A stretch of DNA of 64,000 nt from Aliarcobacter sp. (GTDB lineage Bacteria > Campylobacterota > Campylobacteria > Campylobacterales > Arcobacteraceae), in assembly GCA_028688995.1 (NCBI GenBank), contig JAQTXB010000003.1:186001-250000 (forward strand), read 5' to 3'. The first letter of the stretch is position 1; each line of letters opens with the position of its first letter. This document shows, piece after piece, positions 28,372-56,460 of the stretch. A program made the position numbers and the translations under genes. The notes beneath the pieces are model-generated. The model made no database searches and was not told the DNA's origin. It saw only the letters and a program-made list of their open reading frames with translations.

Positions 28372-29208
28372 TTAAATAGTATGTAAAAAGCTATTATTTA
28401 TTTTTGATAATCCTATAAATTGAGCATATTCTTCTGCTTCAAAAAGAAAATTTTTTGGAGTTTTTGAAGTAAAACTTTTAAATTCTTTAATAAAATGAGA
28501 TTGATCTGTATAGTTATTTTTTTGTGCAATATGTGCAAATTTCATATCTTCAGAGTTATATCTATATTCAGTTAGTACATTGTAGAATCTTGCTATTTTA
28601 CTTATTTCTTTTGGGGATAATCCTGTAAATTCTTTTACTTTTCTTTGAATTTGTCTTATTGATAATTTTTGTTCATAGAAAAAATTATCAAGATTTCCTT
28701 TTTTATATAAATCAGATAATCCTATTATTAAACTATCTTTTTGAAAATCTTTTTTATAAAAAAGTTCAGTAAAGTAATTATTTAATAGTTTAATCATTAA
28801 ATATTTATTATTAAGACAAGAGAATAATTGCCCAATTATTGAGTAGTCAAAATTTAACGAAAGCTCTTTTATATCATAAAATTTCAATTCTAACTTTTCT
28901 ACAGGAATATTAAATAGTTTTGTAAAAATTCCTGGTTTTAATTGTATATCAATAATACAGCTATCTTTTGAAATATGAGTCTTATGAAATTTAGAAATAG
29001 GTGGAACTACATATATTCCTTTTGCCACAGTTGAATTATATTCTTCAACATACATATCACCTTTTAATATAAAAAGAATAGTAGCGCAACCATCTGGTAA
29101 AATTAGTTTTGATTGGATTGGGTCATTAATATCACTTTCCATAAACCAAAATACTTTTATCCAATCTTGTAAAATTGTGCTTGGTAAATACATTTTAGAT
29201 GTAATCAC
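28372..29208 (-). CDS. AraC family transcriptional regulator (QhpR-like candidate 1)
   Basis: C-terminal HTH: LSIRQIQRKVKEFTGLSPKEISKIARF ... DQSHFIKEFKSFTSKTPKNFL. Confidence 0.88.
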   Translation of the reverse strand: MITSKMYLPSTILQDWIKVFWFMESDINDPIQSKLILPDGCATILFILKGDMYVEEYNSTVAKGIYVVPPISKFHKTHISKDSCIIDIQLKPGIFTKLFNIPVEKLELKFYDIKELSLNFDYSIIGQLFSCLNNKYLMIKLLNNYFTELFYKKDFQKDSLIIGLSDLYKKGNLDNFFYEQKLSIRQIQRKVKEFTGLSPKEISKIARFYNVLTEYRYNSEDMKFAHIAQKNNYTDQSHFIKEFKSFTSKTPKNFLFEAEEYAQFIGLSKINNSFLHTI

Positions 29209-29309
29209 TCACACTCCTCTTTTTAACGAATTGTAACATCTATAAATATTTCATAGCTCTATAAAGAGTATATTTTATATACAACATATATGTTCTATTA
29301 TCTAATATC

Positions 29310-29327
29310 TGTCGTTTTTTTACAATA
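29310..29327 (+). promoter_or_regulatory. conserved motif copy 1, upstream of porin
   Basis: TGTCGTTTTTTTACAATA; TATATT -10-like element at 29345. Confidence 0.65.
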
Positions 29328-29380
29328 AACAATTTCTACTACTTTATATTATTACATTAATCAAAATTTTAGGAGAAAGA

Positions 29381-30448
29381 ATGAAAAAAAAGTATATTAG
29401 TGCAGGAGTAGCATCTTTGATAATTGGATTGTCTTTAAATGCACAAACAATTAATGAAAATATGAGTGCAGATGTGGAATTAGGATTCTTAAATAAACAA
29501 TATGATTCACCAAGTGATGATAAAAACTTTAGTACAGGAATTGTTAATTTAACTTTAGAAAATAAATTTAATGATGAGTTAAAAGTAAATTTAGGATTTA
29601 GAACTAATCAAAAATTATACCAAACTGATAATTATTATGATGATACTCATAAAGAGACTTCAATACTTTATGATGGAAATATCACTTATGAAAATGATTT
29701 AGTAAATGTAATTGTAGGTAGACAATGGATTGATATGGAGTGGCTTGGATATATCCATGAAGCAGCACTTGCAACTCTAAAAACTATACCTGATACCTTA
29801 GTTACTGTTGGATATACAAGTAGAATTAGTTTTACTGATGAGGATGAAATAGGAACTTTTAATAAAGATTTTGGAGATGCTGGTGCGTATATATTTAATA
29901 CAAATTATCAAGGAATTAAAGATACATCAACAGAATTATTTTATCTTGATGCACCAGATTTATTTAATGCATATGGTTTGAAATTAGATTATACAAACAG
30001 TATATTTGGTTTAACTGGAAGATATGCTCAAACAAATGAACAAAATTCAAATGTTGATGGAGATGTATATCATTTTGAGGGACGATACACAATCTCTGAT
30101 TTAAATTTAAAAGCTGGATATTTAGTAACTGATAAAGATGGAGGAGCTGGAAGCCTTAGAAAATTAGGTGGAAATTTAGTTCCATTTTTTGAAGAGGGGT
30201 ATCAAATTTATGAAGTTGATGCAAAAACAGCATATTTTGGAGCAGATTATACATTTAATGACTTAGAGTTAATTGCTTTATATGGGCAAACTGATTATAG
30301 AAATAACCATGCAGATGAATTAAATCTAAAATTTAATTATCCAATAACAAGTAAATTAACATTATCTCCTGTTTACGCAAATATAAATTCTAATGAAAGT
30401 TCTTATGATTATGATATTTTTAAAACATATATCACATATAAATTTTAA
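29381..30448 (+). CDS. outer-membrane porin (major outer membrane protein-like)
   Basis: Signal peptide, beta-strand pattern, terminal Phe (TYITYKF); GRQWIDMEWLG resembles the porin at 55354 (GRQAIDLEWLG). Confidence 0.8.
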   Translation: MKKKYISAGVASLIIGLSLNAQTINENMSADVELGFLNKQYDSPSDDKNFSTGIVNLTLENKFNDELKVNLGFRTNQKLYQTDNYYDDTHKETSILYDGNITYENDLVNVIVGRQWIDMEWLGYIHEAALATLKTIPDTLVTVGYTSRISFTDEDEIGTFNKDFGDAGAYIFNTNYQGIKDTSTELFYLDAPDLFNAYGLKLDYTNSIFGLTGRYAQTNEQNSNVDGDVYHFEGRYTISDLNLKAGYLVTDKDGGAGSLRKLGGNLVPFFEEGYQIYEVDAKTAYFGADYTFNDLELIALYGQTDYRNNHADELNLKFNYPITSKLTLSPVYANINSNESSYDYDIFKTYITYKF

Positions 30449-30492
30449 TTTGTATATTTAATAAACAAGAAAAATAAACAGAATATATAGAA

Positions 30493-30510
30493 TGTCGCTT
30501 TTTTACAATA
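30493..30510 (+). promoter_or_regulatory. conserved motif copy 2, upstream of qhpA copy 1
   Basis: TGTCGCTTTTTTACAATA. Confidence 0.65.
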
Positions 30511-30564
30511 TGAAAAAAAAGCAAAAGACTAAACTTACAACATATTTCAATAAAGGAGAATAAC

Positions 30565-32166
30565 TTGAATTATAAAAAGTTTTCTAAATTAGGATTAGGG
30601 GTACTATTATCATCAACAGTCTCTCTTTTTGCAGTTGATGCAAAAACAGGTTCAGAAATTATCAATACAAAATGTGTTGCCTGTCATACTGGAAATCTTG
30701 AAAAAGGTCTAAGTAGAATTTCTGATTTAAGAAAAACCCCAGAGGGTTGGTTGTTAAGTGTAAGCAGAATGCAAAATAGTCATGGTTTACAATTAACAAA
30801 AAGTGAAGAATCAGATGTAGTAAAATATTTATCTGATAATCAAGGTTTAACTCAAGATGAAATTAAACCTTTTAAATATATTCTTGAAAAAGAACCAAGT
30901 AAACATGAAATAAATGATAGTGAATTATTAACACAAATGTGTAATAGATGTCATTCAAATGCAAGAATTGGTCTTGAAAGAAGAACAAAAGATGAATGGG
31001 AAACACTTATCCATTTTCATATTGGACAATTTTCAAATATAGAAGCAAATGCAATGGCGAGAGACAGAGATTGGTTTGGAATCGCGACAAATCAAATTGT
31101 GCCAATGTTAGCTGAGAAATTTGGAAAAAATGAACAAGTTTGGAAAGATTATAAAAAATCTATTGCAAATTATAAACTTCCAACTAAATGGATAATGTCA
31201 GGACATACACCAGGTCTTGGTGATTTTAAAGCAACTTATAATCTTCAAAAAATATATGAAGATACTTATAAAGTTGTAATGAATAGTGAATATACAAATG
31301 GTTTGAAATTTGAAGCAAAAGGTGAAGCTATTGTTTATAGTGGTGGAGAATTTAGAGCTAACTTAGTACAAAACAGTATTGAGTTTAAACAAGTTCTTCA
31401 CATTGATGCTAAAGAAAATATTCTTGAAGGAAGAATGTTTGAAACACTTCATAGTGAAAATGGAAGTACACTAAAAGCAGTTCCTTTAGATAAAAAAGAG
31501 CTAACAATTGCAGGAGTTTATCCAAGTGCAATAAAAGCTGATGCTAAAACAACTTTAACAATAGTTGGTTCGAACTTAGAAGGAGATGTTAAGTTACCAA
31601 AAGATATTAAATTACTTAAAACTTTAAAACACACAAGTAATGAAATTATATTAGAAGTTGAAACTTCAAAAGATTTAAAAACATCACAAAATAGTCTAGT
31701 TATAGGTAATAAAACTCTTAACAATAGTATTACATTATTTGACAAAGTGGATTATATGAATATTACACCTGATTATGCACTAGCAAGAATAGGTGGTGAA
31801 GATTATGAAAATATTCCTAAACAATATGCGACTTTTGAAGCAATTGGTTATTCAAATGGAGCTGATGGTATTAAAGGCACAAGTGATGATATTAATTTAG
31901 GAGTTCTTCCTGTTACTTGGAATTTGGATGATTTCAATGAAGAGACAAAAAATGACCATGACTTACAATATATGGGAAGTATCAATAGATACACTGGAAA
32001 ATTTACTCCAAGTGAAGCTGGATTAAATCCAAAAAGAAAATCTTCAACAAATAATGTAGGAAAAGCAAGTGTAATTGCAACATATAAAGTTTTGGGAAAT
32101 GAAGTAGAAGCAAAAGCAGAATTAGTTTCAACTGTTCCAAAATATGTGAATCCACCAATAGATTAA
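30565..32166 (+). CDS. qhpA: quinohemoprotein amine dehydrogenase alpha subunit, copy 1
   Basis: Signal peptide, two CxxCH heme sites (CVACH, CNRCH), Ig-like domains; adjacent CTQ gamma subunit and rSAM; TTG start. Confidence 0.92.
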   Translation: MNYKKFSKLGLGVLLSSTVSLFAVDAKTGSEIINTKCVACHTGNLEKGLSRISDLRKTPEGWLLSVSRMQNSHGLQLTKSEESDVVKYLSDNQGLTQDEIKPFKYILEKEPSKHEINDSELLTQMCNRCHSNARIGLERRTKDEWETLIHFHIGQFSNIEANAMARDRDWFGIATNQIVPMLAEKFGKNEQVWKDYKKSIANYKLPTKWIMSGHTPGLGDFKATYNLQKIYEDTYKVVMNSEYTNGLKFEAKGEAIVYSGGEFRANLVQNSIEFKQVLHIDAKENILEGRMFETLHSENGSTLKAVPLDKKELTIAGVYPSAIKADAKTTLTIVGSNLEGDVKLPKDIKLLKTLKHTSNEIILEVETSKDLKTSQNSLVIGNKTLNNSITLFDKVDYMNITPDYALARIGGEDYENIPKQYATFEAIGYSNGADGIKGTSDDINLGVLPVTWNLDDFNEETKNDHDLQYMGSINRYTGKFTPSEAGLNPKRKSSTNNVGKASVIATYKVLGNEVEAKAELVSTVPKYVNPPID

Positions 32167-32170
32167 TATT

Positions 32171-33556
32171 ATGACAAAATTAATGAATAATAAAAAATAT
32201 AACCTTCTAAGAATTAATTACAATATCTTAGAAGTGGATGGTAAAAAGTATATGTTTCATATACCAAGTTCATCAATATTTGAATTATCAGCTGAAAGTC
32301 TTTTAGTTTTAAATAAACTTGAAAATGATGAAGATATTGAGAGTTGTAACAGCGAGATTATTGAAGAATTTATTGATATGGAAATTATAGGTTCTTTTTT
32401 TAAGCAAAAAGAAAAAGATGTAAAGATTGAGAATTTCCCTGCAAAAGCATTAATTTTAAATGTAACTTCAGGGTGTAATCTTAGTTGCACATATTGCTAT
32501 AAAGAGGATTTAACATCTTTAAAGAATAGTGGGCAAATGACTTTTGAAATTGCAAAAGATGCAATAGATATGTTTTTTAAAGAATCACCATATTTAAAAG
32601 AGTATTCAATTACTTTTTTTGGTGGTGAACCAATAAGTAATTTACCTTTAATCAAAGAAATTATCTCTTATGCGAATAGTTTCTTTGGAGAAAAAGGTTT
32701 AAAAATTGGCTATTCAATGACAACAAATGCAACACTTTTAACAAAAAGTATTATTGAGTATTTATATGAAAATAGAGTTGATATTACAGTTAGTATGGAT
32801 GGACCAGAAGCATTACACAATAAAACAAGAGTTTTTGAAAATGGTAAGGGAAGTTACGAAAAAGTAGCAAAAAATGTAGCTTTATTATTATCAATTTATA
32901 AAGACAGAGTCGTAGCAGCAAGAGTAACACTCACAAGAGGAGTTACAGATATATTAAAAATTTGGGATCATCTAAAAAATGATATTGGTTTCAAAGAGAT
33001 TGGTTTTGCTCCTGTAACTTCTGGTGAAAAAGAGTTTTTTAATTTAAGTGTTTTTGAACAACAAAAGGTTTTTGAAGAATTTAAAATTTTAGGTGAACAT
33101 TACATTCAAAATGCAATTAATGGAAAACTTAATGGTTTTTCAAATTTACATAGAACTGTAATTGATATTCACGAAGGAAGAAAGAAAAAACTACCTTGTG
33201 GAGCAGGAGTTGGACTTTTATCTGTTTCATATAAAGGTGATATAGATTTATGTCATAGATTTACAGGTTCTGATTTTCAATCTTTTGGAAATATAGAACA
33301 AGGGCTTGATAAACCTGCCTTGTCTAAATTCCTAGAAAAAAGAGCTAATGAAAAAGATGGAAGTTGTCAAACATGTAGAGTTAGATATTTATGTGCGGGT
33401 GGTTGCTACCATGAGAGTTATATAAAATCAGGAAACCCTGAAAACTCAGTTTCACACTATTGTGATGATCTTAGATCATGGATTGATTATGCAATAACTG
33501 CATATATTAGAATAAAAAATTCTAACCCAGATTTTTTTAATAAATTTATAAAATAA
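32171..33556 (+). CDS. qhpD: radical SAM / SPASM peptide-modifying maturase, copy 1
   Basis: CNLSCTYCYK, FFGGEP, C-terminal CQTCRVRYLCAGGCYHES SPASM Cys cluster. Confidence 0.93.
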   Translation: MTKLMNNKKYNLLRINYNILEVDGKKYMFHIPSSSIFELSAESLLVLNKLENDEDIESCNSEIIEEFIDMEIIGSFFKQKEKDVKIENFPAKALILNVTSGCNLSCTYCYKEDLTSLKNSGQMTFEIAKDAIDMFFKESPYLKEYSITFFGGEPISNLPLIKEIISYANSFFGEKGLKIGYSMTTNATLLTKSIIEYLYENRVDITVSMDGPEALHNKTRVFENGKGSYEKVAKNVALLLSIYKDRVVAARVTLTRGVTDILKIWDHLKNDIGFKEIGFAPVTSGEKEFFNLSVFEQQKVFEEFKILGEHYIQNAINGKLNGFSNLHRTVIDIHEGRKKKLPCGAGVGLLSVSYKGDIDLCHRFTGSDFQSFGNIEQGLDKPALSKFLEKRANEKDGSCQTCRVRYLCAGGCYHESYIKSGNPENSVSHYCDDLRSWIDYAITAYIRIKNSNPDFFNKFIK

Positions 33557-33564
33557 AAGGAGAA

Positions 33565-33888
33565 ATGATGAAACATTTTAAGCCAATGACACCAAAAGCA
33601 GAACTTTTAAGTGAAGCTATGAAAAATGGTAATAGTGAAGAAGTTATAGCAATGTCAAGTGTTGTAGGATGTACAACAACTTATGATCCTGGATGGGAAG
33701 TTGGATTTGATGGAGGTTTTGCAACACTTTGTCAACCAATGGAAGCTGATTTATATGGTTGCTCTGATTCTTGTTGGTGGCCAGCACAAGTTCCAGATAC
33801 AGGTTCAAGTTATCAATCTTGGACAGATAAAGCACCATCAAGTAAAGATAATTGGAGAGAGTTTGAAAATACTCACTCTAAGAAATAA
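33565..33888 (+). CDS. qhpC: quinohemoprotein amine dehydrogenase gamma subunit precursor (CTQ protein), copy 1
   Basis: VVGCTTTYDPGWEV...LCQPMEADLYGCSDSCWWPAQVPD: all Cys-to-Asp/Glu and Cys-Trp crosslink residues present; leader ~30 aa without Sec signal. Confidence 0.95.
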   Translation: MMKHFKPMTPKAELLSEAMKNGNSEEVIAMSSVVGCTTTYDPGWEVGFDGGFATLCQPMEADLYGCSDSCWWPAQVPDTGSSYQSWTDKAPSSKDNWREFENTHSKK

Positions 33889-33901
33889 TAGGAGTTAAAT
33901 T

Positions 33902-35026
33902 ATGATAAATAAAAAACTTACAAAAAAATGTTTTACACTACTGTCTTTTTCAATGATTTTCTCAATGGCTAATACAATAAGTGCAAATGAGATTAAATTA
34001 AAAGCAGATAATGACTATCTTGTTACTTCATCAAGACCTGGAAATATTCTTGTGGTTGATTTAAAAACAAATGAAGTTGTAAATAATTGTAAAACAGATG
34101 AAAAATATAACCATGGAGTTTTATTATCTCCTGATTACAAAACAGCTTTTATTTTAGGTAATGGTTGGGAAGAAATAGGTGGATACAATATAGAAACTTG
34201 TAAAAAAGTATTTCATACTAATCTTTCAGCAGGGAATATTAAAGGTAAATCAACAGATGGTCTTGCAATTAGTAGTGATGGAAAAGAGTTATATGCCACA
34301 TATAATAGAGTTGAACTAGGAAGTGATAGATATACAGTAAAAGACCCATATCTTTCAGTTTATAATATAAGTGATGGCTTAAATGCTAAACCTATAAAAA
34401 ACATTACAATGCCAAGACAAATGTGTACAATAAGTGCTGCTGATAATGGAAAAATATATGGAACAGGTGCGCACTTTTATGAGATTGACCCAAAGGCTGG
34501 AACAGTTGAAATTGCAAAAAAAATGAGAGATTGGGATAGACCAGGATATAGTAATCCAGATTTCTTTTCGCCTTTTATTACGGGGCAAACGACAAAAGAG
34601 TATAGTATTCTTCACTCTGTATTTAAGTTTAAAGATGAAAAACAAAATATGGATGAAGCTACTCCTTATGTTGGAATCACAACAATTGATTTAACAGATG
34701 GAAAAATAACTCAAAGTGAATTTACTATTTTTGAAACAATAATGTTTACAGCTATGCATAATCCTAAAGATAAAAATATACTTTATGGAGTTTTAAATGA
34801 TTTAAGTATGTTTGATTTAAAAAATAAAAAACTTTTAAAAAGAGTTCCTGTTGATCATACTTATTATAATGTTGCAGTTTCTCCTGATGGAGAAAAAGTT
34901 TATACAGGTTCAACACTAAATGATATTTCAATTTATGATGCTAAAACATTAGATAAATTAGGAAATATTCAATTACCAGAAGGTGATATGGGTGGAGGTT
35001 CTCTTCAAATTTTCCATAATATTTAA
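33902..35026 (+). CDS. qhpB: quinohemoprotein amine dehydrogenase beta subunit, copy 1
   Basis: Signal peptide, beta-propeller repeats (LSPDYKTAFILG, VSPDGEKVYTG). Confidence 0.9.
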   Translation: MINKKLTKKCFTLLSFSMIFSMANTISANEIKLKADNDYLVTSSRPGNILVVDLKTNEVVNNCKTDEKYNHGVLLSPDYKTAFILGNGWEEIGGYNIETCKKVFHTNLSAGNIKGKSTDGLAISSDGKELYATYNRVELGSDRYTVKDPYLSVYNISDGLNAKPIKNITMPRQMCTISAADNGKIYGTGAHFYEIDPKAGTVEIAKKMRDWDRPGYSNPDFFSPFITGQTTKEYSILHSVFKFKDEKQNMDEATPYVGITTIDLTDGKITQSEFTIFETIMFTAMHNPKDKNILYGVLNDLSMFDLKNKKLLKRVPVDHTYYNVAVSPDGEKVYTGSTLNDISIYDAKTLDKLGNIQLPEGDMGGGSLQIFHNI

Positions 35027-35052
35027 TATAAATAATATGGTAAAAAAGTATG

Positions 35053-35077
35053 TCTTCTCTTAAAATCTAAGAGAAGA
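35053..35077. terminator. bidirectional terminator hairpin between qhpB1 and convergent araC2
   Basis: TCTTCTCTTA-AAATC-TAAGAGAAGA perfect stem. Confidence 0.7.
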
Positions 35078-35870
35078 TATTACATTTATATTGAAGAAAA
35101 TTATCAGAGTTTTCTAAAAATTGTTTAGGTGTAAATCCAGTAAAGAATTTGAATTCTTTAATAAAAGAAGATTGGTCATAAAAGTTGTTTTCCGTTGCAA
35201 TATTTCCAAAATCTACAATATTCTTATTGGTTTTTATAGTTTTTAATGTGTTGTAAAATCTATTTATTTTTTGAATATCTTTTGGTGTTATTCCTGTGAA
35301 CTCTTTAACTTTTCTTTGTACTTGTCTTACTGATAATCTATTTTGTAGGTAAAAATTATCTAAATTATAATTTTTTGTTAATTGATATATATTCATCAAA
35401 ATAGAATCATCATTATTGATATTATTGAAGATTTTAAAGAAGTAATTATTTAGATAATTAACTGTAGTTTGGATGTTCTCTTTTATGTCATATAAAGTTT
35501 CAAGTATTGATAAATCAAAATTTAAAGATAACTCATTTATTTCATAAACTCTATCTTCTAATTGTGAAACAGGAATTCCAAATAATTTATAAAATACTCC
35601 AGGATACAAAGATATATCAATGTAGTAGGTATTTTCATCAAATTTTAGAATTTGTCTATTCATTGATGGTGGGCAAATATATATTCCACTTTTTTGTGAA
35701 GAGTTTAAATTTGAGTTATTAATTTTAAATAATAGGCATACATTATCATATGGAATAACTATTTTTTCTTGGATAGCAGTTTCATTTATTTTTTTATAGT
35801 CAACAATCCAATAGGATTTTATCCATTTTTGTAATTTTATATGTGGTTCGAAAGTTTTAAAGCTAAACAA
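35067..35870 (-). CDS. AraC family transcriptional regulator (QhpR-like candidate 2)
   Basis: C-terminal HTH: LSVRQVQRKVKEFTGITPKDIQKINRF; paralogue of 28372..29208. Confidence 0.88.
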   Translation of the reverse strand: MFSFKTFEPHIKLQKWIKSYWIVDYKKINETAIQEKIVIPYDNVCLLFKINNSNLNSSQKSGIYICPPSMNRQILKFDENTYYIDISLYPGVFYKLFGIPVSQLEDRVYEINELSLNFDLSILETLYDIKENIQTTVNYLNNYFFKIFNNINNDDSILMNIYQLTKNYNLDNFYLQNRLSVRQVQRKVKEFTGITPKDIQKINRFYNTLKTIKTNKNIVDFGNIATENNFYDQSSFIKEFKFFTGFTPKQFLENSDNFLQYKCNIFS

Positions 35871-35964
35871 TATTTAATCCTTTTTAATTAGCTGAATTCT
35901 AACATTTATTACTTAATAGAGTAATTTAAAAAAACAAAATATCTGTATAAAAAATATACATATT

Positions 35965-35982
35965 TGTCGTTTTTTTACTATA
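35965..35982 (+). promoter_or_regulatory. conserved motif copy 3, upstream of qhpA copy 2
   Basis: TGTCGTTTTTTTACTATA followed 19 nt later by TATAAT (36002-36007). Confidence 0.65.
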
Positions 35983-36065
35983 CAAAAAAAGCTTATGAAT
36001 CTATAATTCGGCAGACACTTACAAGAAATTAAATAGTGTAAGAAATTTTATATGAGGAGCAAATC

Positions 36066-37667
36066 TTGAACTATAAAAGATTATCTAAAATTGGACTTGG
36101 AGCTTTATTATCTTCATTACCATTATTCGCAATTGATGCACAAGTTGGTAAAGAGATTATAAATAGTAAATGTACTGCCTGTCACGTGGGCAATTTAGAC
36201 GATGGTTTAAGCAGAATATCTGACCAAAGAAAAACACCTGAGGGTTGGTATATGACTGTTAAAAGAATGCAAAGGGAACATGGTTTATCAATCACAAAAG
36301 ACCAAGAAACAAATGTAATAAAATATTTATCTGATTATCAAGGATTAACACCTGATGAGATTAAACCTTATGCTTATACTTTGGATAAAACACCAAATGC
36401 TACAGAAGAAGGAAAAGATGATTTATTAGTTGAAATGTGTGTTAGATGTCACTCTGAATCAAGAATTGGTTTACAAAGAAGAACAGCAGTTGAATGGAAA
36501 AAATTAGTTCATTTTCATGTTGGACAATTTACATCATTTGAGATTCAAGCAAAATCTAGAGATAAAGATTGGTTAGGTGTTGCTGAAAATGAGATTGTTC
36601 CTTATTTAGCTGAAAATTTTGGAAAAGACAAAGAGAAATTTGATAAATATAAAAAATCTATAAAAGATTATAAATTACCATCAAAATGGATTACTTATGG
36701 ACATACTGCTGGTAAGGGTGATTTTACTGCAACAATTACATTATTAAATAGTAGTGATGAATCATATGCTTTAATGATGGATTATAAATATGCTTCTGGT
36801 GAAGAATTGCAAGCAAGGGGAATTGCTGTTGTTTATGGTGGAACAGAAGTGAGAGGTTCATTTGTTCAAAATGGTGTTAAATATAGACAAATCTTACATA
36901 TTGACCCTAAAACAAACACATTTGAAGGAAGAATGTTTGAATCTTTACATGATGAAAATGGAAGTATTTTAAAAGGTATTGCTAAAAATTCAAAAGAAGT
37001 TTCAATTGTTGGAATTTATCCAAGTGCTGTAAAAGCAGGAGAAAAAGCAACTATTTCTATTGTTGGAACAAATTTATCTGGTGAAGTTAAATTACCTTCA
37101 GGTTTAAAAGTTTTAAAAACAGTTAAACATACAGAAAATGAAATTGTTCTTGATGTTGAAGCAAATACAAAAGCTAAATCATTATTAGGAAATATCCAAG
37201 TTGGAAGCAAAGTATTCAAAAATAGCTTGGCTGTATATGATAAAGTTGATTATTTAACAGTAATGCCAGAGTATGGAACAGCTAGAATTGGTGGAGATGA
37301 TGGTAAAGATAAAATTCTAAAACAATACACAACATTTGAAGCAATTGGATTTACAAATGGTAAAGATGGTAAAAAAGGTACAGCTGATGATATTAATTTA
37401 GGTGTTTTACCTGTTAAATGGAGCCTTGAAGCATTTGATGAAGTAGCACATGAAGAAAAAGATTTAGATTATGCTGGTGTAATTGATGCAAATACTGGAA
37501 AATTCACTCCAAGTATATCTGGACCAAATACACAAAGAAAATTAATGACTAATAATGCTGGAAATTTAAGTGCAGTTGCAACATATAAAGATGGAAAAGA
37601 AGAATTAAGTGAAAAAGCTCATTTAATGGTTACTGTTCCAAAATATGTGAATCCACCAATTAACTAA
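36066..37667 (+). CDS. qhpA: quinohemoprotein amine dehydrogenase alpha subunit, copy 2
   Basis: CTACH and CVRCH heme motifs; co-linear with copy 1 (both 533 aa); TTG start. Confidence 0.92.
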   Translation: MNYKRLSKIGLGALLSSLPLFAIDAQVGKEIINSKCTACHVGNLDDGLSRISDQRKTPEGWYMTVKRMQREHGLSITKDQETNVIKYLSDYQGLTPDEIKPYAYTLDKTPNATEEGKDDLLVEMCVRCHSESRIGLQRRTAVEWKKLVHFHVGQFTSFEIQAKSRDKDWLGVAENEIVPYLAENFGKDKEKFDKYKKSIKDYKLPSKWITYGHTAGKGDFTATITLLNSSDESYALMMDYKYASGEELQARGIAVVYGGTEVRGSFVQNGVKYRQILHIDPKTNTFEGRMFESLHDENGSILKGIAKNSKEVSIVGIYPSAVKAGEKATISIVGTNLSGEVKLPSGLKVLKTVKHTENEIVLDVEANTKAKSLLGNIQVGSKVFKNSLAVYDKVDYLTVMPEYGTARIGGDDGKDKILKQYTTFEAIGFTNGKDGKKGTADDINLGVLPVKWSLEAFDEVAHEEKDLDYAGVIDANTGKFTPSISGPNTQRKLMTNNAGNLSAVATYKDGKEELSEKAHLMVTVPKYVNPPIN

Positions 37668-37676
37668 GAGTTTATT

Positions 37677-39050
37677 ATGAGTATTAATAATTATAGTTTA
37701 ATAAAAACTAATTATCACATTTTAAATGTTGATTCAAAAGAGTTCTTATTTCATATTCCAACTTCTTCAGTATTTGAACTTTCACCTGAGAGTTCAAAGC
37801 TGTTGAAACAAATAGAAAATAATGAAGAGATTTTTAAATATGACCAAGAAATAGTGGAAGAGTTTAAAGAGTTAAATATTTTAGGTGGAAAGTTTTTTGC
37901 AAAAGCCGAAGATACAAAAATCGAAAAATTTCCTGCAAAAGCTTTGATTTTAAATGTAACATCTGGATGTAATCTTAGTTGTACATATTGCTATAAAGCA
38001 GATTTAACTTCTTTAAAAAATGGTGGACAAATGACATTTGAAATAGCAAAAAGTGCTATTGATATGTTTTACAAAGAATCACCACATTTAAAAGAGTATT
38101 CAATTACTTTTTTTGGTGGAGAACCAATTAGTAATTTACCTTTAATAAAAGAGATTATTACCTATGCAAATGAGTTCTTTGGAAGTAAAGATTTAAAAAT
38201 TGGTTATTCAATGACAACAAATGCAACACTATTAACTGAAGAGATAATTCACTATTTACATGATAGTAGAGTTGATTTAACAGTGAGTATTGATGGACCA
38301 GAAGCTTTACATAATAAAACAAGAGTTTATGAAAATGGTAAGGGAAGTTACGAAAAAGTTGTTAAAAATGTAGCTAAATTACTCTCAATTTATAAAAATA
38401 GAACAGTAGGAGCAAGGGTTACACTTACAAAAGGTGTAACAGATATTCAAGCAATTTGGAACCATTTAAGATATGACTTGAATTTTAAAGAAGTAGGTTT
38501 TGCACCTGTAACTTCAGGTGATAGTGATTTTTATAACTTATCAGATAATGATTTAGCAAAGGTTTTTTCTGGATTTAAAGAACTAGGTGAAGATTATATA
38601 AATGAGGCTATAAAAGGTAATTTTAATGGTTTTTCAAATTTACATAGAACTGTAATTGATATTCACGAAGGAAGAAAGAAAAAACTACCTTGTGGAGCAG
38701 GAGTTGGACTTTTATCTGTTTCATATAAAGGTGATATAGATTTATGTCATAGATTTACAGGTTCAGATTATCCATCATTTGGAAATATAGAAAAAGGCCT
38801 TGATAAATTAGCTTTAGGTACTTTTTTAGAAAAAAGAGCAAATGAAAAAGATACAAATTGTCAAACATGTAGAATTAGAAATTTATGTGCTGGTGGTTGT
38901 TATCATGAAAGTTATATAAAGTATGGAACACCAGAAAAATCAGTATTGCACTATTGTGATGATATGAGAAATTGGATTGATTTTGCAGTAGAAGCATATA
39001 TTAGAATTCAAGCAGGAAATCCAGAATTCTTTACAAAATATTTTAAATAA
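37677..39050 (+). CDS. qhpD: radical SAM / SPASM peptide-modifying maturase, copy 2
   Basis: CNLSCTYCYK; CQTCRIRNLCAGGCYHES. Confidence 0.93.
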   Translation: MSINNYSLIKTNYHILNVDSKEFLFHIPTSSVFELSPESSKLLKQIENNEEIFKYDQEIVEEFKELNILGGKFFAKAEDTKIEKFPAKALILNVTSGCNLSCTYCYKADLTSLKNGGQMTFEIAKSAIDMFYKESPHLKEYSITFFGGEPISNLPLIKEIITYANEFFGSKDLKIGYSMTTNATLLTEEIIHYLHDSRVDLTVSIDGPEALHNKTRVYENGKGSYEKVVKNVAKLLSIYKNRTVGARVTLTKGVTDIQAIWNHLRYDLNFKEVGFAPVTSGDSDFYNLSDNDLAKVFSGFKELGEDYINEAIKGNFNGFSNLHRTVIDIHEGRKKKLPCGAGVGLLSVSYKGDIDLCHRFTGSDYPSFGNIEKGLDKLALGTFLEKRANEKDTNCQTCRIRNLCAGGCYHESYIKYGTPEKSVLHYCDDMRNWIDFAVEAYIRIQAGNPEFFTKYFK

Positions 39051-39060
39051 AGGAATAAAA

Positions 39061-39381
39061 ATGAAACATTTAAAACCAATAACACCAAAAGCAAAACTTT
39101 TTGATGATGCCGTAAAAGAGGGAACTACCGATGAAGTTATTGCAATGTCAAGTATAGTTGGTTGCGTAACTACATTTGACCCAGGATGGGAAGTTGATAG
39201 TGATGGAGGACTTGCAAGTTTATGTCAACCATTAGAAGCAGATTTATATGGTTGTTCAGACCCTTGCTGGTGGCCAACTCAAGTTCCTGACACATCATCT
39301 AGTTATAAAAAATGGGCTGATAAAGCGCCATCTAGTAAAGATGATTGGCGAGAACTAGAAAATGTATATCCAAAAATATAA
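39061..39381 (+). CDS. qhpC: quinohemoprotein amine dehydrogenase gamma subunit precursor (CTQ protein), copy 2
   Basis: IVGCVTTFDPGWEV...LCQPLEADLYGCSDPCWWPTQVPD. Confidence 0.95.
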   Translation: MKHLKPITPKAKLFDDAVKEGTTDEVIAMSSIVGCVTTFDPGWEVDSDGGLASLCQPLEADLYGCSDPCWWPTQVPDTSSSYKKWADKAPSSKDDWRELENVYPKI

Positions 39382-39395
39382 GTAAAGGTTAAAAT

Positions 39396-40523
39396 ATGTT
39401 AAATAAAAAAATAATAAAAAATAGTTTAGGATTATTGACTTTTTCATTAGTATTATCGTCATCTATTACTACAAATCTAAATGCTGCTAATGTGAAATTA
39501 GAGTCAGACCATGATTATTTAGTTGCGGAAACAAGACCTAATAATATAGTTTTAGTTGATTTGAAATCTAATAAAGTAATTAATGAATGTAAAACAGATG
39601 AAAGCTTTTCTCCTGGTGGAATAGTTTTATCACCTGATTATAAAATTGCTTATGTTTTGGGGGGATACGGGGAAGAGATTGGTGGATATGAAGTTGAAAC
39701 TTGTAAAAAAGTTTTCCATACTTCTTTAACACAAGGAAATGTAAGAGCTAAATCACTATCTGGAATTGCAGTTAATGAAGATGGAAAACAAGTATATGCT
39801 ATTTATAATAGAACAGAAATGGGAAATGATACATATACAGTTCTTGATTCTATGTTTTCAGTTTATAATGTAGCAGATGGATTAGATGCAAAAGCTGTAA
39901 AAAGCTTTAAAATTCCAAGACAAATGACAATGATTTCAACAGCAACTGATGGAACTGTTTTTGGAGCAGGAAGCCATTTATATGAGATAAATCCAAAAAC
40001 AGGTGATATTAAAATTGCTAAAAAAATGAGAGACTGGGGGAAAGAAGGATATAGCAATCCTGATTCATCAGCTACATATTTAATTGGTCAACAACAAGGT
40101 GAATTAACAGCTTTATATACAACTGAGAAAAAAGATGAAACTAAGCCAGAAGAAGAGCCTATTCTTTATTGGGGGATTACAAGTGTAGATTTAAAAACTA
40201 AAGCTATAACTCAAGTTGAATTTACAGAGTATGAAACTTTAATGTTTACCGCAATTAGAAGTCCAAAAGACCCAAATATTTTGTATGGTACATTAAATGA
40301 CTTAACTAAGTTTGATATTAAAGAGCAAAAAGTTTTAAAAAGAGTTTTAAATGATCATACATATTATAGTGTTGTTCCATCAGCTGATGGTGAGAAATTA
40401 TATCTTGGTGGTTGTTTAAATGATATCGCAATTTATGATGCAAATACATTAGAAAAATTAGGAAAAATTTATCTAAGTGGTGATATGGGTTCTGCTGCAC
40501 TTCAAGTATTTCACACAAAATAG
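39396..40523 (+). CDS. qhpB: quinohemoprotein amine dehydrogenase beta subunit, copy 2
   Basis: Signal peptide, beta-propeller, paralogue of 33902..35026. Confidence 0.9.
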   Translation: MLNKKIIKNSLGLLTFSLVLSSSITTNLNAANVKLESDHDYLVAETRPNNIVLVDLKSNKVINECKTDESFSPGGIVLSPDYKIAYVLGGYGEEIGGYEVETCKKVFHTSLTQGNVRAKSLSGIAVNEDGKQVYAIYNRTEMGNDTYTVLDSMFSVYNVADGLDAKAVKSFKIPRQMTMISTATDGTVFGAGSHLYEINPKTGDIKIAKKMRDWGKEGYSNPDSSATYLIGQQQGELTALYTTEKKDETKPEEEPILYWGITSVDLKTKAITQVEFTEYETLMFTAIRSPKDPNILYGTLNDLTKFDIKEQKVLKRVLNDHTYYSVVPSADGEKLYLGGCLNDIAIYDANTLEKLGKIYLSGDMGSAALQVFHTK

Positions 40524-42175
40524 TGACTAAAAACAAAATGTTTAAAAATACAATTTATCCTCTCTTAAAAGAAAATAAGAGAGGATTTTTTATCATCTTT
40601 TTCTTTTCAATTATTGTTTCTTTAGGTGGAGCATTACAACCATATATTATGCAACATATAATTGATAATGCAATTTTAATTTCAGATGTAAATCAACTTT
40701 TTATTTTAGTTGCAATTTCATTTTTCCTAACAATTTTTATAATGATAATAAGTAGTGTAAATGAGATATATTACACTTCAAACTCTATGAATATTTTATT
40801 TGAGTTTAGAAAAAGAGTATTTAATAAACTATTTTTACATAATAAAAGTTTTATGACGCGATACCATTCAGCTGATTTAATGTCTAGAGTTCAAGGTGAT
40901 ATTAGTGAACTTCAAAGATTTTATACTGATTCATTGTTTGCAATATTTTCAACTATCATTAGTCTTGTATTTATCTCATTTATTATCTACTCATATAATA
41001 TAAAACTAATGATACTTATTTTAATTTTTTTACCAATAGAGTTTTTTTGTCTAAAACCTCTTTATCCATATATGCACGATAGTACAAAAAATATGAGAGA
41101 AAGCACTTCAAATATTGGTAAATTTTTTATTGAGAGTTTTAGATATATTTTAGTTCTAAAAAATCTTGGTGCAAAACAAATGACAATTTCAAAACTTGAT
41201 GTTATTCAAGAAGATTATAAAAAAGTTGTTATCAAAAATAAAAAATTAAATCTAATTTTTACACAAGTTCCTGCACTTATTTCCTTACTTGGAAAAACAA
41301 TAATCATCTCTTATGGAGGATATTTAACAATTACAAATGAGTTAAAACTTGGTGAATTAATGGCTTTTTTAACATATTTTGGAATGATTTTAGCTCCTGT
41401 TCATACAATCTTAGGAGTTATAAATAATCTTCCAAAAGTAAAAGTAAGCCTAAATAGAGTCCTAGAAATATTACCAAAAGATGAAAAAATAGAGATATTA
41501 AAAACTATTAATTATGATATTAGTGTAAAAGATTTGAGTTTTTCATATGGCAATAATCAAATTTTTAACAAATTAAATTTAAAGATAAAACAGAATAGTA
41601 AAATTGCAATTATAGGAAAAAATGGAGTAGGAAAAAGCACCTTTGGAGATTTACTTTGTGGTTTACAAAGTGCTCAAAGTGGAACTATATTTTTAGGAAA
41701 TGAACAAATAGGAAAAAATGATTATTCGAATTTCTCAAACTATATTGTAAAACTCGAGCAAACGCCAATAATTTTTGATGATACATTAAGAGGAAATCTA
41801 CTTTTAGCAAAAATAGATGCTACTGATGAAGAACTTATAAGTGCTTTGAAACTAACTGGTATGAACTCTTGGTTTGAAAATCTAAAAGATGGACTAAATA
41901 CAAATATCTATGAATCAGGGGATAACATCTCAGGTGGTCAAAAACAAAGAATTGCACTATCAAGAATAATTTTACTAAAACCAAAGGTGATAATACTTGA
42001 TGAATTTACCTCTTCAATAGATGAAAAAGATACTCTTTGGTTTTATGAAAATATCGCAAAACTTTTTCCAAATTCAACTATTATTGCTATTACTCATCAT
42101 CTTAATATGTTAAATAATTTTGAAAAAGTTTATTTATTAGAGAATCAAAATCTAAGGGAGTATCAAAATGCCTAA
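40523..42175 (+). CDS. qhpF: ABC transporter (fused TM + ATPase), gamma-subunit exporter
   Basis: N-terminal TMs; IGKNGVGKSTFGDLLCG, SGGQKQRIALSRIILLKPKVIILDEFTS; position in qhp operon. Confidence 0.88.
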   Translation: MTKNKMFKNTIYPLLKENKRGFFIIFFFSIIVSLGGALQPYIMQHIIDNAILISDVNQLFILVAISFFLTIFIMIISSVNEIYYTSNSMNILFEFRKRVFNKLFLHNKSFMTRYHSADLMSRVQGDISELQRFYTDSLFAIFSTIISLVFISFIIYSYNIKLMILILIFLPIEFFCLKPLYPYMHDSTKNMRESTSNIGKFFIESFRYILVLKNLGAKQMTISKLDVIQEDYKKVVIKNKKLNLIFTQVPALISLLGKTIIISYGGYLTITNELKLGELMAFLTYFGMILAPVHTILGVINNLPKVKVSLNRVLEILPKDEKIEILKTINYDISVKDLSFSYGNNQIFNKLNLKIKQNSKIAIIGKNGVGKSTFGDLLCGLQSAQSGTIFLGNEQIGKNDYSNFSNYIVKLEQTPIIFDDTLRGNLLLAKIDATDEELISALKLTGMNSWFENLKDGLNTNIYESGDNISGGQKQRIALSRIILLKPKVIILDEFTSSIDEKDTLWFYENIAKLFPNSTIIAITHHLNMLNNFEKVYLLENQNLREYQNA

Positions 42176-42809
42176 AGATATTTTTGTAGCTTTAATAGAT
42201 AGTGGTTGCACTTTTAAAACCCATGAAAAGCTTGCAATAAAAGTTGAGAATAATAAAATTATTACAACAACTCAAAATGAAATTAAATACAAACATGGAG
42301 ATGTTATTGGACAAATAATATCTTCTAATGAAAATATAAAACTATATGATATTCAAGTATTTGATGAAAATCTAAGAACAACTCCTTCACATATTATTGG
42401 AGCTTTAACTTATCTTTTAGATAAAAAAGTAGATGTAATAAATATGAGTTTAGGACTTAAAACAAACTATAAAGAGATAGAAGATATATGTAAAAAACTA
42501 AGTTCAAAAGGAGTTACAATAATTTCATCTTTCCCAAGAAGTGGAGCTGATTTTGTATTTCCAGCATCTTATGATGAGGTAATTAGTGTAACTTCTGATG
42601 GAAAGTGCCAAGAGAATGAAATTAGTTGTATAGATTTAGAGAAATCACTTTTTGGTGCAAATCCATTTTCAAAGGTTGAGGGTGTTGGAGGTTCTAGTGT
42701 TGCTGTTGCAAAATTCACAAAATATTTTTGTGAACAGTTACAAAAAGAATTAAATAAAGAAGAAATTTTAACTGAAATAAAAAGAGGTTGTAACAATGAA
42801 TCAAAATAA
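42168..42809 (+). CDS. qhpE: subtilisin-like serine protease for gamma-subunit leader removal
   Basis: VALIDSGC (Asp), KYKHGDVIGQI (His), VGGSSVAVAKF (Ser) triad motifs; overlaps qhpF and qhpG. Confidence 0.85.
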   Translation: MPKDIFVALIDSGCTFKTHEKLAIKVENNKIITTTQNEIKYKHGDVIGQIISSNENIKLYDIQVFDENLRTTPSHIIGALTYLLDKKVDVINMSLGLKTNYKEIEDICKKLSSKGVTIISSFPRSGADFVFPASYDEVISVTSDGKCQENEISCIDLEKSLFGANPFSKVEGVGGSSVAVAKFTKYFCEQLQKELNKEEILTEIKRGCNNESK

Positions 42810-44121
42810 AACAATAGTAGTTTTAGGAGCTGGAATTGCTGGAGTTACAACAGCAATTGGTCTTAAAAAACTTGGATTTAATGTAAAGATTTTTTATAAA
42901 CCAAGACCATTTATATCATATGAGGGATTTAGTGAAAAAACAAAAGATGGATTAATCTCTAGTTCTTGCATAAGAGCATCACAACTAATAACAGAACAAT
43001 CTATGCGAAATTCAAATTGGGCTAATAATTCAAAAAATGTAAATTATGAGTATGTAGTTTGCAGAGCTAATTTAGATGAAGCTTTACTTGAAGATGCAAA
43101 AGATAATGGAATTGAACTAATAGAAGCAAGAGTAATTGGTTCGATTGATTATAGTGAAGAAAAACCAAAAGTTATTTATAAAATAGATGAAGATAAATTA
43201 CAAGTTTATGCTGATTTTGTAGTTGATGCAAGAGGAAGATTTACTCCTTTTAAAGATGAATATATAAATGGTCCAAAAAGTTTTTCTCTTCTTCAAGAGT
43301 TAGAGATGGATAGTTTTTCACAAAATAGAACTTCAATTGATTCAACAATAGATGGTTGGATTTGGCAAGCTTATGTGGGGAATAAAAAAGGTTATATTCA
43401 ATTTACTTGTGATGAAGAGTTAGCAGTAAAAATAAATGATTTCGATGAATTATTAGAAATTTTGAAAGAACAAAAGGCAGATTTTTGGAGTTTACAAAAT
43501 GCCAAACCAGTTGGAAAAATTGTAAAAAGAGACTCATACAGTAAAATCCACAAAGAGATAATCAACACTAAAATGATTTTAATAGGAGATAGTGCTTCAA
43601 GTGTTGATCCACTTTCCGGAAATGGAGCTTTTCAAGCAATGAGTATGTCAAGTATTGCACCTTATGTAATTAATACAATTATAAATAAAAATGAGATTGA
43701 ACAAAAAGTAGCTATAAATTTCTATAAAAGTAGGGTGCAATTTATTTTTGATAAATTTTCAAAAGTTGGTAAAGAGTTTTATTTATTAGAAAAAAGATAC
43801 ACAAGTGATTTTTGGCAAAAAAGACAAAGTTGGCCAAATGAAAAAATAAGTGATGTAGAAAATTTGCCAAGAATAGAAGAAAAAGCGATAGTTAATGAAC
43901 AATATGTATTGGCACAAGATGTGGTTGTTACAAAAAATAATCCGATGGGTGTTTGGTGTTATGGAAAAATAGAAGTTGTAGAATTAGCAAAATATTGTAT
44001 TGAAAATAAACTAGAAAAATCATTGGATTATTTTGATGAGTTTTGCAAGAAAAATGATGTTTCTATGGGATTATATAACTCTTTAAAAAGATGGTGTATA
44101 GAGCAGGAGATTTTGAACTAA
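42796..44121 (+). CDS. qhpG: FAD-dependent monooxygenase of CTQ biogenesis
   Basis: VVLGAGIAGVTTAIGLKKLGF, GDSASSVDPLSGNGAFQAMSM. Confidence 0.88.
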   Translation: MNQNKTIVVLGAGIAGVTTAIGLKKLGFNVKIFYKPRPFISYEGFSEKTKDGLISSSCIRASQLITEQSMRNSNWANNSKNVNYEYVVCRANLDEALLEDAKDNGIELIEARVIGSIDYSEEKPKVIYKIDEDKLQVYADFVVDARGRFTPFKDEYINGPKSFSLLQELEMDSFSQNRTSIDSTIDGWIWQAYVGNKKGYIQFTCDEELAVKINDFDELLEILKEQKADFWSLQNAKPVGKIVKRDSYSKIHKEIINTKMILIGDSASSVDPLSGNGAFQAMSMSSIAPYVINTIINKNEIEQKVAINFYKSRVQFIFDKFSKVGKEFYLLEKRYTSDFWQKRQSWPNEKISDVENLPRIEEKAIVNEQYVLAQDVVVTKNNPMGVWCYGKIEVVELAKYCIENKLEKSLDYFDEFCKKNDVSMGLYNSLKRWCIEQEILN

Positions 44122-55180: not shown

Positions 55181-55353
55181 ATAAAATTTTTAAAAAAGTA
55201 AGCAGATTGTATTTTAAATTATGTATATAAAATATACAGTATGCTTGTTTATTTTGAATTTTGTTGATGTTATAATTCTATTGTTCTTCTAAAATGAAAA
55301 ACTATTAACGCGATGATAGTGATTCAAAATATATTTATTTACAAGGAAAAAAA

Positions 55354-56460
55354 ATGAAAAATCTATTAACAGGTAAGACATTAAGCTTAGCAGCTTGTGG
55401 ATTATTATTAAGCACATCTATGGCTTTTGGAGCGAATACAATCGATTCAGCATTTAAAGAAGGTAAAGTTTCAGGAAGTGTAGCTCTATATGGTGAAAAA
55501 CATGACAACAAAAATGGAAATTTAGATTCTGGTTTTGGAAATGGTAATGCTACTGTAGCTTATGAAACTGCATCATTTTATGGATTAAGTGCAAAAGCTG
55601 AATTTAAAGGAAATCTTTATTTAGGTGAAATTGAAAAAGCTGATCATGATAATGCTTATACAAATAACTCTTTAATGACAGAAGCATATATTAAATATGC
55701 AATGGATGGTTTTTCATTAACTGCTGGTAGACAAGCTATTGATTTAGAATGGTTAGGTGATTACAATGAGGCTGTAGTTGCTGCTATAACTGCAATTCCT
55801 GATACAACAGTTGTTATAGGATGGGCGGATAGACAAGCTGAATCTGGAATTGATTTAAGTGAAGATTTTACTGATCTTAATGGAAACAAAGGTGCATATG
55901 TGCTAGATGTTAAATATGCAGGTTTACAAGGTGTAGAATTTAACCCTTATGCATATTCAGCTCCAGAAGTTGCTGATTGGTATGGATTAAAAACAACATT
56001 TACAGCTGATTATTTTGGTGCAATTGCACATTATGCTGTATCAGATGAAGATACACAAACTGATGGATCAATTGGACATGTTGAGTTAAATACAACTTTA
56101 GCAGGAATTTCTGGTGCTGTTGGTTATATTAAAACTGATAAAGATGTTGGAGCTGGAAGTATGACTGTAGCTGGTGATAATATCTCTCCATTTGATACAG
56201 GACTTAATACATATTCTGCAGATGCAAAAACAGTGTATGGTTCTTTAGGATATACAATTGTAGATGTTGAATTAGGTGCATTATATGGTGAAACTAAATT
56301 TGGTACAGATTATAAAGAGAAAGAGTTAAATTTAACTGCTTCTTATCCAATTACTGAGTCTTTAGCTACTTCTGTTTTATATGGAGAAGTTAATGCAGAT
56401 GAAGCAAATGGAGATTCTGACGATAACTATGTATTAGCAAGTGTAGAATATACATTCTAA
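55354..56460 (+). CDS. outer-membrane porin (major outer membrane protein-like)
   Basis: Signal peptide, GRQAIDLEWLGDYNEA, terminal VEYTF. Confidence 0.85.
   Translation: MKNLLTGKTLSLAACGLLLSTSMAFGANTIDSAFKEGKVSGSVALYGEKHDNKNGNLDSGFGNGNATVAYETASFYGLSAKAEFKGNLYLGEIEKADHDNAYTNNSLMTEAYIKYAMDGFSLTAGRQAIDLEWLGDYNEAVVAAITAIPDTTVVIGWADRQAESGIDLSEDFTDLNGNKGAYVLDVKYAGLQGVEFNPYAYSAPEVADWYGLKTTFTADYFGAIAHYAVSDEDTQTDGSIGHVELNTTLAGISGAVGYIKTDKDVGAGSMTVAGDNISPFDTGLNTYSADAKTVYGSLGYTIVDVELGALYGETKFGTDYKEKELNLTASYPITESLATSVLYGEVNADEANGDSDDNYVLASVEYTF

Follow-up and report, generated by a model that had tools for sequence, protein, structure and literature searches.

Several described systems bear on the locus analyzed here. 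At the araBAD promoter of Escherichia coli, the I2 site of AraC, which overlaps the –35 element, extends from –51 to –35 (PMC11434276). The Pseudomonas regulator ArgR, also of the AraC family, recognizes boxes of the form TGTCGCN6GNAA, which are arranged in tandem with a 5-bp gap and hence with a 21-bp period (PMC10963909). The qhp genes are under the control of an n-butylamine-inducible regulator (PMC7876137). As for nitrogen control, the NtrC site is a 17-bp dyad, TGCACCAnnnTGGTGCA (PMC8743547), and NtrC proteins devoid of the GAFTGA motif are known to act at sigma70 promoters (PMC10274813).

Our window, a stretch of 64,000 nucleotides from an Aliarcobacter sp. (contig JAQTXB010000003.1, positions 186,001 to 250,000), contains duplicated genes for quinohemoprotein amine dehydrogenase (QHNDH), with a porin gene preceding qhpA1 (Table 1). 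In the first set, the assignment of the radical SAM protein and the beta subunit is based on gene order and on homology with other qhp loci. The two divergent AraC-type regulators both carry a DUF6597 (PF20240) N-terminus, and the C-terminal domain encoded by the adjacent AraC-family gene has two helix-turn-helix (HTH) elements, as expected for the AraC/XylS family. An 18-bp motif occurs ahead of the porin, qhpA1 and qhpA2. We consider it very probable that this motif is a class II operator of the neighboring DUF6597-type regulators, that the three promoters form one amine-utilization regulon, and that a palindrome upstream of the motif adds nitrogen control.

Table 1. Genes and predicted regulatory elements in the window (positions in the window; a dot marks a feature given without strand)
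Feature	Position	Strand	Basis
AraC1, DUF6597 + HTH_18 regulator, divergent from porin	28372..29208	-	
Nitrogen-box-like palindrome AGTATATTTTATATACA, 1 mismatch, 43 bp upstream of TGTCG (porin)	29267..29283	.	
Predicted AraC site ahead of porin, TGTCGTTTTTTTACAATA	29310..29327	+	sequence inspection, genome scan
Predicted –10 of porin promoter, TATTAT, 37 bp from TGTCG start	29347..29352	+	inferred from spacing conserved elsewhere
Porin (Porin_4)	29381..30448	+	
Nitrogen-box-like palindrome TGTATATTTAATAAACA, 1 mismatch, 42 bp upstream of TGTCG (qhpA1)	30451..30467	.	
Predicted AraC site ahead of qhpA1, TGTCGCTTTTTTACAATA	30493..30510	+	sequence inspection, genome scan
Predicted weak –10 of qhpA1 promoter, TAAACT	30530..30535	+	
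First qhp set: qhpA1, radical SAM, gamma subunit, beta subunit	30565..35026	+	
AraC2, DUF6597 + HTH_AraC regulator, divergent from qhpA2	35067..35870	-	
Putative nitrogen-box palindrome (17 bp) TGTATAAAAAATATACA, 21 bp upstream of TGTCG (qhpA2)	35944..35960	.	
Predicted AraC site ahead of qhpA2, TGTCGTTTTTTTACTATA	35965..35982	+	genome scan; conserved in 14 proximal promoters
–35-like hexamer of qhpA2, TATACA, overlapping the last 4 motif bases, 17-bp spacer to –10	35979..35984	+	
Predicted –10 of qhpA2 promoter, TATAAT	36002..36007	+	
Second qhp set: qhpA2, radical SAM, gamma, beta, ABC transporter, S8 protease, FAD protein	36066..44121	+	
Putative nitrogen-box palindrome ahead of a second porin-like gene (55354-56460), without TGTCG site; –10 TATAAT at 55271-55276	55222..55238	.	

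The resemblance to AraC at araBAD lies in the family of the regulator and in a proximal site of about 17 bp over the –35 region (here about –49 to –32); unlike in E. coli, the sensor domain here is DUF6597, the site has another sequence, and the upstream site resembles the operator of another protein. With the ArgR box, the motif shares the TGTCG core, a similar length and the 21-bp period between neighboring boxes, whereas here there is a T-tract with an AC(A/T)ATA end, a palindrome lies upstream, and the regulated process would be amine oxidation.

As with QhpR in proteobacterial qhp operons, an AraC-family gene lies within the qhp cluster. The preliminary description had called the regulators QhpR-like; this could not be upheld as orthology, since the AraC protein of the Paracoccus qhp locus (assumed from gene order to be the tested QhpR) possesses an Arabinose_bd domain (PF12625) instead of PF20240 and gave no BLASTP alignment with AraC1. 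The motif was searched for in the Paracoccus qhpA upstream regions and was not found there. A scan of contigs for QhpA returned four loci, the two betaproteobacterial ones being without a DUF6597-type homologue or the motif. Near the qhp clusters on one Pseudomonas and one Cupriavidus plasmid we found a sigma54-dependent, Fis-type regulator.

The NtrC proteins of Rhodobacter capsulatus and Caulobacter that lack GAFTGA and act at sigma70 promoters resemble our candidate for nitrogen control, also an NtrC-like protein of nitrogen genes, with a 17-bp dyad and no GAFTGA. The present protein differs in being 253 residues long, with no receiver domain found, and the dyad that it would bind reads TGTATA-N5-TATACA.

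The 18-bp motif and DUF6597-type AraC genes

The sequences and coordinates of the three sites proved to be exact, on the plus strand, as reported in the preliminary description, and its statement that the window holds no further copy was borne out even when three mismatches were allowed. It had also proposed a genome-wide scan. Over the 2,952,537 bases of the genome (G000), we obtained three exact matches to TGTCGNTTTTTTACNATA, all of them the window sites, none at one mismatch and eight at two mismatches. Weak matches in the genome (up to three mismatches) were fewer for the motif than for a reversed control pattern. Under a first-order Markov model derived from the window, 0.001–0.002 exact copies would be expected per genome. 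A test within the window at three mismatches (3 found vs 0.9 expected, with 6 of 100 shuffles reaching three matches) is too lax for judging exact matches; the genome-wide test was used instead, and the strength of the evidence comes from the exact matches. Two contigs of the assembly (C8 and C11) showed an identical series of weak matches with identical spacings, suggesting a duplicated stretch.

QhpA was detected in 12 of 107 genomes of the family, with 15 genes in total. The motif, with 0–2 mismatches, was present upstream of all 15 qhpA genes, and an AraC1- or AraC2-like gene was close to every one of them; these genomes are related, so the counts are not independent. When 14 proximal promoters were aligned on the motif, TGTCG was the best-conserved block (2.5 bits per base), followed by the AC.ATA end (1.3), the palindrome (1.2) and the –10 region (0.9); values were 0.37 for the spacer and 0.27–0.41 for the outer flanks.

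A search for DUF6597 proteins in 400 genomes of the order gave 20 above the Pfam cut-off. At 17 of these 20 DUF6597-AraC loci the motif was found with at most two mismatches (mean of 0.13 in 30 rounds of dinucleotide shuffling), and in 15 a –10 element lay exactly 19 bp downstream of it (N19), an arrangement that the shuffles never produced. Seven of the ten loci without qhp genes had the motif. Outside qhp, in scans of the family and of the 400 genomes, the motif with a –10 at N19 lay at or just past the 3' end of AraC-type genes, and the genes behind it were unrelated ones, encoding DUF2867, polyketide-cyclase-like, MauE/DoxX-like and other proteins. In some cases (L028-L031, L069-L071) the site falls at or inside the last AraC codons, so that operator and coding sequence overlap. 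A coding coincidence (MSFFYN) was considered for these matches, which lie in genomes without qhp; it is opposed by the exact N19 spacing of the –10 and by the recurrence in several families, and for these reasons we argue that they are real promoters.

Among the exceptions, L129 has a site with three mismatches and TATACT at N19, while in G060 and G069, whose regulators align well with AraC1 (41–43%), the second HTH reads NHSHF instead of the otherwise conserved DQSHF. Loss of the site and change of the recognition helix thus coincide, a correlation seen in two related genomes. Matches at L032-L038, in genomes without qhp, lay in unrelated DNA with no adjoining AraC gene and were taken as background, as were the many one-mismatch composite matches of the order-wide scan.

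As far as sequences can tell, the occurrence at every qhpA gene, the pre-eminence of TGTCG and the unrelated DUF6597-AraC operons with the same N19 spacing support the AraC-site reading of the preliminary description.

The upstream palindrome and a 253-residue NtrC-like protein

Upstream of the motif we noticed a palindrome, TGTATA-N5-TATACA, which the preliminary description had missed. In the proximal qhpA promoters it starts 21 bp before TGTCG (in L026 it is degenerate). Searched alone, with one mismatch allowed, the palindrome is hardly over-represented genome-wide (49 matches vs 41 in the control). The composite pattern GTATA-N5-TATAC-N{28,48}-TATAAT gave 26 matches in five genomes of the genus, against 4 for the reversed pattern. 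With a gap of 31–33 bp to TATAAT, the palindrome precedes two amtB genes, gltB, eutB, porin genes, a gene for a conserved 489-residue protein and the operon encoding the 253-residue protein and glnD (amtB, gltB and eutB were named from reading of translated sequences, glnD by Pfam). In G000, those at the amtB genes, eutB, gltB and the glnD operon are on contigs C13, C15, C19 and C27. The gap is 42–43 bp at qhpA and, from the coordinates, 63–64 bp at qhpA1 and the window porin; the three classes differ by about whole helical turns. The palindrome near the second porin gene was also seen in six relatives.

Its repeated occurrence ahead of amtB, gltB, eutB, the glnD operon and porin genes makes the palindrome look like a nitrogen box. 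Like NtrC-type boxes, it is a 17-bp dyad ahead of nitrogen-assimilation genes, at a fixed distance from a TATAAT –10, and it probably reports nitrogen shortage.

The 253-residue NtrC-like protein is encoded before glnD (L122:7966-8727, i.e., G000:C13:7966-8727) and is present in 84 of the 107 family genomes, many of them without RpoN. It gave a marginal match to Sigma54_activat and weak, below-cut-off matches to the Fis-like HTH_50 and HTH_8; the lack of a detectable receiver domain and of GAFTGA in its sequence sets it apart from NtrC proper. A PDB sequence search with this protein returned no match. Its own promoter has the palindrome at a gap of 31 in 10 of 12 genomes examined. The tight box-plus-TATAAT pattern was found in 76 of the 84 genomes with the protein vs 2 of the 23 without it (Fisher p = 9e-14, a value that overstates independence, the genomes being related). 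We detected RpoN in no more than 34 of the 107 genomes, one of them G000, so that the protein cannot generally need sigma54. Many protein-bearing genomes have no RpoN, but the notion that the protein exists because RpoN is absent fails for G000, which has it.

The palindrome could instead be part of the AraC site, a single dimer using it as distal and TGTCG as proximal half-site, with the 21-bp period seen for AraC I1-I2 and for the ArgR boxes. In the proximal promoters its TGT does lie exactly 21 bp before that of the motif, and ArgR boxes are in tandem, the second being less conserved. We nonetheless regard this arrangement as unlikely. The palindrome occurs without TGTCG, at its fixed 31–33 gap to TATAAT, at amtB, gltB, eutB, the glnD operon and porin genes; most genomes that have no NtrC-like protein do not contain it; DUF6597 loci outside qhp possess the motif without a palindrome in the 21 bp upstream; and at the porin and qhpA1 the two elements are 42–43 bp apart.

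Promoter geometry and mode of action

Of the –10 hexamers initially proposed, TAAACT at 30530 and TATAAT at 36002 (37 bp from TGTCG) were retained, whereas TATATT at 29345, ahead of the porin, would be only 35 bp from TGTCG. Reading the porin –10 as TATTAT at 29347 gives 37 bp at all three window promoters. All three then have a 17-bp spacer, counted from a hexamer that shares four bases with the end of the motif and that reads TATACA in many proximal qhpA promoters. The 14 proximal qhpA promoters have in common the palindrome, the TGTCG block and TATAAT, the latter starting 37 bp (12 of 14) or 38 bp (2 of 14) after the T of TGTCG. If the –10 is taken to occupy –12 to –7, the motif extends from about –49 to –32, and transcription is predicted to start near 29359, 30542 and 36014. 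Given the poor –10 of qhpA1, its transcription may come partly from read-through from the porin gene. A possible short inverted repeat was spotted by eye at 36014-36050, where the qhpA mRNA is predicted to begin, and likewise at the corresponding position in L018, L020 and L027.

A site of about 17–18 bp, overlapping the –35 region and at a fixed distance from the –10 (in 15 of 20 DUF6597 loci and in the 14 proximal qhpA promoters), is what characterizes class II activation, and the class II placement initially suggested finds support in this sequence arrangement. We infer that a regulator monomer would bind TGTCG-(T)7-AC(A/T)ATA at about –49 to –32 and, when triggered by an amine or an amine product (probably sensed by the regulator), would touch sigma70 RNA polymerase at the overlapping –35. 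Such operators would make the porin, qhpA1 and qhpA2 a single amine-utilization regulon. The palindrome, on the same helix face and centered at about –62 (qhpA2) or –83 (porin, qhpA1), would add control by nitrogen supply; the best candidate for its binding is the 253-residue protein, which would act at a sigma70 promoter.

In several relatives (L018, L023, L024, L026 and L027) a second, distal AraC site lies 70–99 bp upstream of the proximal one and has no –10. These solo sites are possibly looping or autoregulatory sites. Their presence in relatives with AraC1-type regulators would suit an alternative in which either AraC1 or AraC2 acts at these sites by repression or looping instead of activation. 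The placement of the proximal site, however, which reaches into the –35 from upstream and lies close to where AraC I2 does, suits activation, and we rate repression or looping as distinctly improbable. The porin promoter of the window may derive from a distal site of this kind, as suggested by comparable spacings from the divergent gene (102 bp for the porin site, 109–125 bp for the distal sites of relatives). In relatives L018 (3969-4643), L023 and L025, a Gcw_chp-family gene for a putative outer-membrane protein precedes the AraC1-like gene; its counterpart in the window is the Porin_4 gene, on the other side of AraC1.

Campylobacterota promoters are T-rich upstream of the –10, as a general promoter element (a T-rich –35 region) would require; this explanation of the motif can for practical purposes be considered refuted, given that G000 holds three copies only, that the best-conserved part is the G/C-bearing TGTCG, and that occurrence tracks one regulator subfamily. 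A recent promoter duplication along with the qhp genes, with the copies kept by descent rather than function, would fit the two tandem qhp sets and the palindrome at 42/43 bp shared by the porin and qhpA1 promoters; it is extremely improbable, as the motif is exact in three sites whose flanks cannot be aligned with one another, and conservation in distant genera already speaks against it, the site being kept at qhpA genes merely 44–56% identical to qhpA1 and at unrelated genes.

Implications for amine oxidation and nitrogen sensing

If DUF6597-type regulators use the motif as their operator and the palindrome is a nitrogen box, the qhp and porin promoters could be AND-type switches, in which an amine-specific AraC site is combined with a nitrogen box read by a mini-NtrC lacking receiver and GAFTGA and working with sigma70. 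General nitrogen regulation would then fall to this protein throughout the family, its many members without RpoN included. We find the case for and against this composite scheme evenly poised.

The motif offers a candidate operator code for AraC regulators of the DUF6597 branch, a domain named by no paper among those listed in our literature search, and for Arcobacter-type amine oxidation. How Arcobacter-type bacteria sense nitrogen shortage was unclear, as neither NtrBC nor RpoN had been reported in the genome paper on A. butzleri (PMC2147049). The palindrome and the 253-residue protein point to a way in which such a shortage may be perceived.
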